Assembly (NCBI RefSeq): GCF_900143675.1
Contig: NZ_FRFC01000004.1
Coordinates: 124,001-188,000, forward strand
Reading direction: 5' to 3'
Source: Candidatus Nitrosotalea sinensis
GTDB lineage: Archaea > Thermoproteota > Nitrososphaeria > Nitrososphaerales > Nitrosopumilaceae
DNA length: 64,000 nucleotides
The notes below the pieces were generated by a model. It was not told the origin of the DNA, searched no databases, and was given only the letters and a program-made list of their open reading frames with translations. The position numbers were made by a program, and so were the translations under genes. Positions 4,997-36,745 of the stretch are shown piece by piece. The stretch's first letter is position 1. Every line of letters begins with the position of its first letter.

Positions 4997-5524
4997 TTAT
5001 TGGATCCTAAAAGAATGGCCTGCTTTTACATAAAATATCAGGGTGGCCATAATTGATATTGCAAATATCATAGCAGCAAGTGGGCCAAACTCCGGGATTG
5101 CAGGAACTGTTTGGCCTTGAGAAGATGTAGCATTGTTTGTTGGAGGGATAGTTTGTGTTGTACCAGTATATTGGAATGTTGTCTTTGCTGTTTTATCAGG
5201 TCCTCCGTAGGTGACATCAATCTCATATGTTCCAGCACTTTTCCACAAGTTTCCACCTGCAACAGCTTGAACTGAATACGAGTATGTGCTAGGATCAACA
5301 TCTGCTTGTGCAATGTAAACAGGTGTCTGTCCATTTTTTATCACTATTGATATTGGTATATTCAATTGGTCGGTTACCTTTCCTGAAATTATCATGGTAT
5401 CACCATCTGCATATGACGACTTGTCTGTTTGTACTGTTATAGGACTTGTCTGACCAAATGCTGGATATGACGTAAACATGGCACCTATGACTAGTAATAA
5501 TACAAGTGATCTGATTTGCAACAC
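4997..5524 (-). CDS. PEFG-CTERM surface protein with Ig-like domain
   Basis: A 175-aa exported protein. It has a signal peptide (about 1-24, ending near AFG), a beta-rich ectodomain starting ITVQTDKSSYADGDTM, a Thr/Ser/Gln/Pro linker, then IPEFGPLA, a hydrophobic segment and a short basic tail. That is the thaumarchaeal PEFG-CTERM sorting signal, probably cleaved by an archaeosortase. The protein at 41695-42468 has the same domain layout and opening motif, so the two are paralogues. A TATA-like CTTAAATAA lies about 25 nt upstream. Confidence 0.85.
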   Translation of the reverse strand: MLQIRSLVLLLVIGAMFTSYPAFGQTSPITVQTDKSSYADGDTMIISGKVTDQLNIPISIVIKNGQTPVYIAQADVDPSTYSYSVQAVAGGNLWKSAGTYEIDVTYGGPDKTAKTTFQYTGTTQTIPPTNNATSSQGQTVPAIPEFGPLAAMIFAISIMATLIFYVKAGHSFRIQ

Positions 5525-34218: not shown

Positions 34219-34923
34219 TTATTTGCCAGTATGTCCAATATTATGAGTAAGGAATCTATAACTGACTGCAGCTATGCTCGACCCAACAAAAGTTGCTGTC
34301 CAATACAACCATAGATCATTTACATATCCTGATACCAACGCAGGTGCCAGAGATCTTGCTGGATTCATCGATGCGCCGGAAACAAATGCCAAAAAGAAAA
34401 TGTCAAGACCTACCATGCAGCCAATCATAATACTTCCAAATCCTCGAAATCCCTTTTTGTGTACAACTAATAGAATCATAGACATTAACAATGCAGTAGC
34501 CAAAACTTCAACTCCGATGATCAGAGGTATTGGATAATGATAATCAGGTGCATTAGCACCAAGATTTGCATCTGCGCCTATGATATATTTTACAAACAAG
34601 CTTCCCAATATGGCCCCAATTATTTCAGCTCCAAGATATAATGGAAAAAGATGTCTAGGAGTATGCCTAGTGATTAAAAACCCAACTGTTACTGCAGGAT
34701 TAAAGTGCGCCATGGATATCTTGGCAAACAAATACACCATTAAAGCAACTGCTACTGCAGGAGCAAGAGCTACAAACCACAATCCGAACTTTCCAGCATA
34801 TCTTACATCTAACACAACAGAGCCTGTTGCAAATACTACAATCACAAATGTGCCTAGCAATTCTGCAAAAAACCTCTTTTGGTTGGAAGTTAATCTGTTA
34901 ATTAGATTCAATTTTTGTAACAA
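34219..34923 (-). CDS. Aquaporin/MIP family channel in the arsenic operon
   Basis: A 234-aa six-helix channel with the two NPA motifs, HFNPAVTVG and SMNPARSLAP. It is the last gene of an apparent operon with arsC and arsM and overlaps arsC by 26 nt. In that context it probably lets arsenite (or other arsenic species) leave the cell, like AqpS, rather than water alone; this is inference from neighbours. Confidence 0.9.
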   Translation of the reverse strand: MLQKLNLINRLTSNQKRFFAELLGTFVIVVFATGSVVLDVRYAGKFGLWFVALAPAVAVALMVYLFAKISMAHFNPAVTVGFLITRHTPRHLFPLYLGAEIIGAILGSLFVKYIIGADANLGANAPDYHYPIPLIIGVEVLATALLMSMILLVVHKKGFRGFGSIMIGCMVGLDIFFLAFVSGASMNPARSLAPALVSGYVNDLWLYWTATFVGSSIAAVSYRFLTHNIGHTGK

Positions 34924-35326
34924 GTTCTAATACCTTTTCTTCTATCTTGTTTCTAATCTCTCGAACTTTTTCTAGAGGTTTGCCTTTTGGATCTTCAATA
35001 CCCCAGTCTTCAAACTTGCCAACAAAGATGGCAGGACATTCTGTTTTGTCAATACATCCCATGCTTATGTTCAACCATGAATCACGAATCAATTCTTCTG
35101 ATAATTCTTTTGGTTTTTGATTGCTGATATCTATCCCAACTTCTTTCATGGCTTGAACTGCAAGAGGATTGATTTGTGGGGTAGGCCTAGACCCTGCGCT
35201 AATTGGAGCCCATCCCCTTGGTGCATATTTTCTAAAAAAACCTTCGGCCATCTGACTTCTGCCTGCATTCTCAACACATACAAAGAGAATCTTTTTCAAG
35301 TTTTGTTGTTTTCCAAGGAATTTCAT
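34898..35326 (-). CDS. arsC: Arsenate reductase ArsC (low-MW phosphatase/thioredoxin type)
   Basis: A 142-aa enzyme reducing arsenate to arsenite. The nucleophile loop CVENAGRSQ is CX5R. The second cysteine pair is in SMGCIDKTECP, and EDWGIEDPKGK follows, all typical of the thioredoxin-coupled family. It lies between arsM and the aquaporin. The start may also be the downstream codon before KKILFVC. Confidence 0.94.
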   Translation of the reverse strand: MKFLGKQQNLKKILFVCVENAGRSQMAEGFFRKYAPRGWAPISAGSRPTPQINPLAVQAMKEVGIDISNQKPKELSEELIRDSWLNISMGCIDKTECPAIFVGKFEDWGIEDPKGKPLEKVREIRNKIEEKVLELVTKIESN

Positions 35327-35330
35327 GGTA

Positions 35331-36089
35331 TCACTTTATTGCCTTGATGACCAGGCTTGTAATTTTTCGTCCATTGACCCTTTCGCCCTCCATGTACACT
35401 CTCTCATCTAGGACACTGATATTGTGAAACCCTGCCTTTTTGATGCATTCAATATAATGCTCCCGTGTAAGTGCACCATCTATACAGCTACACCATTGCT
35501 CATGATTTACCTGATCACCACTTAATTCCGTATCTGTTATTAGATCAGAAATAACCATCCTACCCCCATCTCTTAGTATCCTGTAAACTTCCTTGAATGC
35601 ATTTGTCTTATCAGTTACAAGATTAATCACACAATTACTTGTTACAACATCAACAACATTGTCATCAATTGGAATGCCATTTTCAACATCTCCTTTTCTG
35701 AATTCAACATTAGTATATTTTCCATTGGCTGCATTTTGTCTTGCTTTTTCAATCATTTCGCCAGTCATGTCTATGCCAATTACCTTGCCAGAGTGAGATA
35801 CCTTGTTTGCAGAAAGAAACACATCAATTCCCGCACCAGATCCTAAATCTACTACCATTTCGCCCTCCTTAAGATCAGCAAATTTTATTGGGGCACCACA
35901 TCCAACACCCAATACAGATTCTCCGGGTATCGACTTTAGATCTTCTTGAGAATATCCGATTAATTTGGCAGCATCAATCGGAGCATCACCTGTAGTACAA
36001 CCTCCAGGCATGCAGCAACAATCAGAATTACCAGTTAAAGCGATCTTTCCATATCTTTCCTTTACTTTGTCCTTGATTATATCCATCAT
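35331..36089 (-). CDS. arsM: Arsenite S-adenosylmethionine methyltransferase
   Basis: A 252-aa methyltransferase. The SAM motif is VVDLGSGAGIDVF; arsenic-binding cysteines are seen in SDCCCMPGGC, TSNCVINL and HEQWCSCIDGA. It converts arsenite to methylated forms. It is the first gene of the ars operon, 4 nt from arsC. Two start ATGs are adjacent (36089, 36086). The operator-like dyad sits directly upstream. Confidence 0.94.
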   Translation of the reverse strand: MMDIIKDKVKERYGKIALTGNSDCCCMPGGCTTGDAPIDAAKLIGYSQEDLKSIPGESVLGVGCGAPIKFADLKEGEMVVDLGSGAGIDVFLSANKVSHSGKVIGIDMTGEMIEKARQNAANGKYTNVEFRKGDVENGIPIDDNVVDVVTSNCVINLVTDKTNAFKEVYRILRDGGRMVISDLITDTELSGDQVNHEQWCSCIDGALTREHYIECIKKAGFHNISVLDERVYMEGERVNGRKITSLVIKAIK

Positions 36090-36090
36090 T

Positions 36091-36111
36091 ATGGTTTATC
36101 TAGTAAACCAT
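36091..36111. promoter_or_regulatory. Perfect operator-like dyad between arsM and the HxlR regulator
   Basis: ATGGTTTA-TCTAG-TAAACCAT has perfect 8-bp arms. It covers the DNA between the arsM ATG (36089) and its TATA box (ACTTAAA, 36117-36111), so a bound protein would block transcription start. The same A/T box read the other way could serve the regulator gene at 36151. Confidence 0.7.
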
Positions 36112-36150
36112 TTAAGTTGTCAAGGAGAAACTATTACAGTTAGTGTAAAA

Positions 36151-36528
36151 ATGGAAACTAAAAGAAAATCTCTTCCAATGGCAAAAGAAAATTGTAATTT
36201 TGAAGGCTATGACGTTATTTCTTTAATGTCAGAAACTTCAAAGCTTAGAAAAATAATTACAAAAAGAGGTACACTTGAGATCCTGATTCCTTTATGCTGT
36301 ACAACCAAACCTGTAAGATACAAACAATTCAAACAATCCTTGAAAGGAATAAGCAGTAAGACACTTACAACAAGACTAAAGGAGCTTGAAAAAAATGGAG
36401 TTCTAGAGCGACTAGCATATAATGAAATTCCGCCAAGAGTCGAATACAAGCTGACTAGTAAGGGGCAGGATCTTGTAGAATCCATAATTGACTTGCTACA
36501 ATGGATGAAAAAATGGTCTAGAAAATAA
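36151..36528 (+). CDS. HxlR-type winged-helix regulator, probably of the ars operon
   Basis: A 125-aa HxlR-family protein: VRYKQFKQSLKGISSKTLTT, LKELEKNGVLERLAYNE, then PPRVEYKLTSKGQDL. It has Cys residues before the HTH (KENC and IPLCCTT) that could bind arsenite. It is divergent from arsM with the dyad between. Typical ars regulators are ArsR-family; an HxlR member is unusual but the location argues for it. A longer frame extends upstream into arsM and is rejected. Confidence 0.85.
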   Translation: METKRKSLPMAKENCNFEGYDVISLMSETSKLRKIITKRGTLEILIPLCCTTKPVRYKQFKQSLKGISSKTLTTRLKELEKNGVLERLAYNEIPPRVEYKLTSKGQDLVESIIDLLQWMKKWSRK

Positions 36529-36577: not shown

Positions 36578-36745
36578 CTAGTTGTATAATACCTGTTTTG
36601 CGATCTGATTACACTTGACATGAACCTGCTCGTCGCTAGATTTCCTGCACAGTGAGCACACGAACTGGTTTACCATGCTACATACGGTGCAACGTTGGAA
36701 TTCTTCCATAGTAACACCACAGTTTCTACATGAATCTCTTCGCAT
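36578..36745 (-). CDS. Zinc-finger microprotein, 55 aa
   Basis: Cys-rich: SCRNCG, RCTVC, FVCSLC, then H and C near VHVKCN, so two metal sites are likely. A TATA-like TTTATAAAG (36776-36768) lies about 25-30 nt before the ATG. Not recognised; it is a likely nucleic-acid or protein adaptor. Confidence 0.72.
   Translation of the reverse strand: MRRDSCRNCGVTMEEFQRCTVCSMVNQFVCSLCRKSSDEQVHVKCNQIAKQVLYN

Follow-up and report, generated by a model that had tools for sequence, protein, structure and literature searches.

The arsenic switches in the literature that we compared belong to the ArsR family, in which cysteine sites have been placed independently several times. The ArsR/SmtB repressors R773, AfArsR, CgArsR and ArArsR are winged-helix ars regulators with three cysteines as likely ligands of trivalent arsenic. 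According to one source, the known ArsR sites have three thiols each, at several positions that evolved independently, and that of CgArsR joins the vicinal pair Cys15-Cys16 to Cys55 of the other subunit (PMC11868830). Redox sensing is the usual business of another family, HxlR/DUF24 (PMC6943732). Its redox regulators include HypR, YodB, CatR, QsrR and RrpA. On the transport side, ars operons of the Sinorhizobium aqpS type have an aquaporin as their sole ars transporter, and PMC4435449 reports that all 18 MIP channels of ars operons stand without a second transporter.

The window analysed here, a stretch of 64,000 nucleotides from Candidatus Nitrosotalea sinensis, contains an arsM-arsC-aquaporin operon and, divergent from it across a gap of 61 bases, a gene of the HxlR family. 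The features are:

34219-34923, minus strand: aquaporin (MIP family), probable arsenite exit channel; 234 aa, two NPA motifs; PF00230 at 140.8 bits
34898-35326, minus strand: arsC, putative arsenate reductase from the low-molecular-weight phosphatase family; 142 aa; PF01451 at 67.2 bits
35331-36089, minus strand: arsM, arsenite methyltransferase; 252 aa; NCBIfam PRK11873 at 274.6 bits against a cut-off of 263
36091-36111, no strand: candidate operator dyad ATGGTTTA-TCTAG-TAAACCAT, read from the sequence and kept in relatives
36110-36116, minus strand: TATA-like CTTAAAT of the putative arsM promoter, read from the sequence, with ATTTAA beside the dyad in relatives, where the alignment anchor imposed it; role assigned from the archaeal layout
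36151-36528, plus strand: HxlR/DUF24-family regulator gene; 125 aa; PF01638 at 79.1 bits against a cut-off of 20.8

Like the ArsR/SmtB repressors, the HxlR protein of the window is a predicted winged-helix ars regulator with three cysteines as putative trivalent-arsenic ligands, and its Cys49-Cys50 and Cys15 resemble the pair-plus-single pattern of CgArsR. Unlike them, it belongs to another protein family, its cysteine positions are unshared and its candidate operator is different. With the HypR-type regulators it has family and fold in common, as well as the N-terminal cysteine column, but its CC pair stands at a new position and its predicted target is ars rather than oxidoreductases. ArsR genes in sister archaea (the gene at 5115-5417 of locus L236 and its relatives) have the same place, orientation and structural genes, and sometimes the same address beside truB; they differ in being of the PF01022 family, in having no dyad and in an operon without arsM. 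The operon resembles the Sinorhizobium type in its aquaporin, but is archaeal, carries arsM and is predicted to be HxlR-controlled. What is new is an ars operon under a predicted regulator of another family than ArsR. Such a regulator had been expected to be novel, and a literature search covering open-access rather than, for the most part, subscription papers returned no report of an HxlR/DUF24 arsenic regulator.

The original prediction had arsM-arsC-aquaporin transcribed away from the HxlR-family gene, and coordinates, strands and profile matches all agree with it. ArsM scores above the arsenite methyltransferase cut-off (PRK11873), and the aquaporin is clear at family level (MIP channel, PF00230). 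The assignment of ArsC is also clear at family level, with PF01451 (LMW phosphatase) above its cut-off; among the NCBIfam models arsenate reductases score best, at 77-89 bits, which is under their curated cut-offs of 157.6, 215 and 174.3. The 1.6-Mb genome has no match to Acr3 or ArsB anywhere, and in ars operons elsewhere aquaporins occur with no other transporter, so arsenite probably leaves through the aquaporin. The HxlR gene and a DNA polymerase-like gene flank a cysteine-rich ORF of 55 aa that resembles a zinc ribbon (36578-36745, minus strand); a small ORF similar to it adjoins the ArsR gene at locus L258. The anti-phage library gave no match.

PF01638 is the sole Pfam match of the HxlR protein, which has no match to HTH_5 (PF01022). 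Its AlphaFold2 model has a mean pLDDT of 81.8, and the best Foldseek matches are HxlR-family chains, for example 2fsw, 1z7u, 7bze, 5hs7 and 4a5m. The protein has only three cysteines: the CC pair already noted, which is Cys49-Cys50, and Cys15, which the earlier account had missed. None of the three varies among the 36 orthologues aligned, a set that excludes L093 (identical to L092) and the broken L098. The CC pair is absent from all 82 other HxlR proteins compared, namely 20 paralogues and 62 distant proteins (L124-L185; the truncated CC-bearing remnant L123 was excluded as a clade member). The Cys15 column is also Cys in 17 of the paralogues and 48 of the distant proteins. In the model Cys49 closes the helix 41-49 and Cys50 comes next, and the model has low confidence around Cys15 (mean pLDDT 57 over residues 11-20). 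The second cysteine of HypR, Cys49, aligns near residue 64 of the window protein, about 14 residues beyond the CC pair, so the pair occupies a new position. A HypR-like disulfide partner for Cys15 was accordingly rejected, the CC pair being off the column of HypR's second cysteine.

A perfect dyad had been described between the arsM TATA box and its ATG; it does lie there, and it fills the gap between them: on the left a single base separates it from the ATG of arsM (36089, minus strand), and on the right it touches the TATA-like CTTAAAT. The latter is about 24 bases from the ATG, a TATA-to-start spacing that in the archaeal promoter layout fits an mRNA starting at or beside the ATG, and this distance suggests a leaderless arsM transcript with such a start. 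A protein bound downstream of an archaeal TATA element should block polymerase. Among 5000 Markov simulations of the 61-bp gap, 54 contained a perfect arm of at least 8 bp, and among 5000 base shuffles 121 did; because chance arms appear in 1-2% of simulated gaps, the dyad taken alone is only mildly unusual. A chance palindrome, possible on those figures, is ruled out by the conservation in relatives described below.

When up to three mismatches are allowed the window has three sites for the dyad, one of them perfect (36091-36111), and the 17-bp core has a single exact copy in the 1.6-Mb genome. At up to two mismatches the core finds 58 genome sites, fewer than the 181 of a reversed control. 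Nothing therefore points to a wider regulon, and we rejected that candidate on the rarity of weak matches and the lack of a second exact genome copy.

Across the family the conserved core is GTTTAC-N3-GTAAAC, the window copy having T instead of the inner C. Relatives had been proposed as the place to look for the dyad upstream of ars genes, and a loose upstream scan (GTTTA-N4-6-AAAC) recovered it, at a fixed place, in 33 of 38 orthologous loci; among the five misses one locus is truncated by the end of its contig, and the other four differ at a base of the left arm. The same scan found it at none of the 20 paralogues and none of the 62 distant HxlR genes. A dyad-anchored alignment takes in 37 of the 38 loci and has the left arm GTTTA kept in 35 to 37 of 37 at each base. 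The left arm is the only independent evidence in it, because the pattern used as anchor itself dictated the right arm and the TATA stretch; symmetric covariation of the arms, judged by eye on this alignment, is weak. One relative, G030, has its arsM moved to another contig (L080), with the TATA stretch kept and the dyad lost; its HxlR gene remains beside arsC-aquaporin, where the dyad place is kept. On this one case we rejected the possibility that dyad conservation is mere TATA conservation.

Orthologues of the HxlR protein (protein search, E 1e-36 or better) were found at 38 loci in 33 of 151 related genomes, and at 36 of these loci the gene is divergent from arsM, arsC or both. The exceptions are L076, cut by a contig end, and L096, an extra copy without ars genes. 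Operon orders in the relatives include arsM-arsC-aquaporin, arsC-arsM-arsC-aquaporin, arsC-aquaporin, tandem arsM and arsM alone, the second arsC ahead of arsM being found at L037, L062, L065, L066 and L068. A phylum-wide search matched 27 of 398 genomes and added nine loci to the whole-genome set. All seven intact loci among them have a divergent arsM, the three cysteines and the dyad at -57; the other two are broken HxlR remnants with neither ars neighbours nor dyad. G438 and G491 in this group match L112 and L123, and the wholly new intact loci number six. Named genomes, when scanned, contributed 17 entries (L106-L122), each beside ars genes; at least seven of these entries are genomes already in the other sets.

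Several of these loci depart from the intact arrangement. L096 (genome G147; gene at 5034-5444 of the locus) is the fourth CC-bearing HxlR copy in one genome, with a dyad upstream and no arsenic genes nearby, and may control another target. At L072 (G022), L077 (G016) and L098 (G020) arsM is broken, with split or cut frames, and the adjoining arsC-aquaporin remains; at L098 the HxlR gene is broken as well.

The aquaporin was found by search in 82 of the 151 genomes, at 86 places. Of these, 34 are HxlR-type loci, and by coordinates the other 52 comprise 29 with an ArsR gene and 23 with neither regulator; this gene family is therefore not always regulator-dependent. From the 52 we examined 21 loci (L236 and L249-L268, the latter 20 chosen mostly by high identity). 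An ArsR-family gene of about 100 aa is divergent from arsC-aquaporin in 17 of them, and the two arsC-linked ArsR genes that were scanned both match PF01022 (50.5 bits for the L236 5115-5417 type). The remaining four, which are the loci examined from the 23 places with neither regulator, are L259, L261 and L264, without arsC, and L268, with arsC-aquaporin and without ArsR. The dyad is absent from all 21.

An orthologue of this ArsR gene is present in 29 of the 151 genomes, in every case in divergent orientation and no more than about 600 bases away from the aquaporin. The HxlR type is found in 33 genomes and no genome has both types, a mutual exclusion with a one-sided Fisher value of 3.2e-4 across the 151 genomes and, within the genus (37 genomes: 22 HxlR, nine ArsR, six neither), a Fisher value of 4.0e-5, kinship being ignored in both. 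Loci of both kinds share the same address beside truB: seven of the HxlR type (L062-L068) and four of the ArsR type (L249, L252, L254 and L256). The closest pairs there are L249 with L068 (88% identity for Aqp and 91% for ArsC) and L252 with L065 (89% for both); the remaining truB pairs compared are less alike, with ArsC down to 64%.

The Aqp tree and the ArsC tree, built from 56 loci, each show 11 changes of the regulator label, where shuffled labels gave a mean of about 14.8 and a minimum of 10. Changes on branches with support of at least 0.95 number six for Aqp, five for ArsC and six for the joined tree; at support of at least 0.99 they number three, two and four. The labels are interleaved on the trees, and we rejected the picture of two clean operon clades, one per regulator; recombination of Aqp or ArsC could add to the changes counted. 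Since the label changes repeatedly on the structural-gene trees, these trees indicate that HxlR and ArsR have traded places several times in front of a single structural-gene set. Such repeated swapping of unrelated regulators at the same operon provides matched natural pairs for studying the replacement of a regulator and its operator.

The genome of the window has 12 HTH_5 matches, nine of them above the cut-off. An ArsR gene elsewhere in the genome running the window operon was rejected as a candidate, since at E 1e-20 the arsC-linked ArsR has no orthologue among them; a more distant ArsR may run it.

The central claim of the original prediction, control of the arsenic operon by the HxlR protein via the dyad, came through the comparison of genomes: predicted control through the dyad is well supported, because the divergent linkage is conserved, the footprint has a fixed place and replacement by ArsR is mutually exclusive. 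As the HxlR gene occupies ArsR's place, its product likely keeps the operon off until trivalent arsenic appears, and repression fits because the dyad sits just after the TATA element of arsM and ahead of the start. The protein is very probably an ars repressor on this genomic evidence, and it probably does ArsR's job by an independently evolved route. The operon content, the exchange with ArsR and the three invariant cysteines point to arsenite as the signal; that the protein senses it through the cysteines is plausible, because all three are invariant and two of them are private to this HxlR clade.

In the mechanism we propose, an HxlR dimer would occupy GTTTAC-N3-GTAAAC between the TATA element and the transcription start and keep RNA polymerase off the arsM promoter. 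Trivalent arsenic, either incoming arsenite or the product of ArsC from arsenate, would bind Cys15, Cys49 and Cys50, within one subunit or across the dimer; arsenic-loaded HxlR would then leave the DNA and the operon would be switched on. ArsC would convert arsenate to arsenite, ArsM would carry out methylation and the aquaporin would allow arsenite to flow out down its gradient, a step proposed because the genome lacks an Acr3 or ArsB match. We consider it likely that the HxlR protein is a repressor of arsM-arsC-aquaporin released by trivalent arsenic on the three cysteines. The broader proposal of an independently evolved three-thiol sensor of trivalent arsenic that has been swapped repeatedly with ArsR, operator and regulator moving together and the structural genes staying, is in our estimate evenly balanced.

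A sensor of methylarsenite or of thiol stress would leave much the same traces as a sensor of arsenite. The former is a variant of the repressor explanation in which the ligand alone differs, being methylarsenite from ArsM, or methylarsenite and arsenite. Because arsM is present in 26 of 33 HxlR-type genomes and in 1 of 29 ArsR-type genomes, methylarsenite may act as the signal or as an additional one, and it needs only two thiols, which the CC pair could supply (the two-ligand rule of PMC11868830). Set against this are six HxlR-type loci with arsC and aquaporin but no arsM (L070, L075, L078, L081, L082 and L084), which keep the regulator and the operator place (L070 and L078 with one changed left-arm base); the arsM of G030, which moved away and lost the dyad; and the third cysteine, which is as invariant as the pair. 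We hold methylarsenite to be a possible ligand, though a doubtful one. A general thiol-stress switch of the HypR, YodB and CatR sort, answering to oxidants, quinones or hypochlorite and to arsenic via thiol oxidation only, would explain why Cys15 occupies the N-terminal cysteine column of most paralogues, by which known DUF24 members detect oxidants (PMC6943732); the place of Cys15 in this ordinary column weighs against the arsenic-sensor reading. Arsenic and redox control can also overlap, as with the Paracoccus ArsR, which responds to both arsenite and diamide (PMC9137774). A thiol-stress switch is nevertheless unlikely given a CC pair specific to the clade (0/82 other HxlR proteins), the strict ars linkage of the HxlR gene and its exclusive interchange with an ArsR-family gene.

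The role of the protein at the promoter can also be read otherwise. Bacillus HxlR is reported to be a positive regulator, and the window protein might be an activator as that protein is for hxlAB; we find this improbable with a dyad that extends from the downstream side of the arsM TATA element as far as the ATG, since a protein bound there would be expected to obstruct polymerase. It is highly improbable that the neighbourhood simply survives from a common ancestor and that the target of the HxlR protein is something else. The orphan copy L096 has no ars neighbour, and the related loci share ancestry, their counts being non-independent, but the linkage persists in two families and amid differing flanking genes, the place of the dyad is constant where the first operon gene varies (arsM or arsC), and the genome has no second exact dyad site.

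If the preferred reading of an arsenic-released HxlR repressor is true, arsenic sensing can arise on a second winged-helix family, one otherwise known for sensing oxidants and aldehydes. Ammonia-oxidising archaea would gain a testable arsenic response, and the HxlR arsenic switch would be a potential new biosensor part.

Other gene neighbourhoods came up in the searches. At L173 an ordinary Bathyarchaeota HxlR gene, without the CC pair, adjoins an arsC-like gene. At L100 (G119), from another family of the order, arsM adjoins an ArsR gene (EMCVCEV motif), a putative Acr3-like gene and arsC, which together form a conventional ars cluster.
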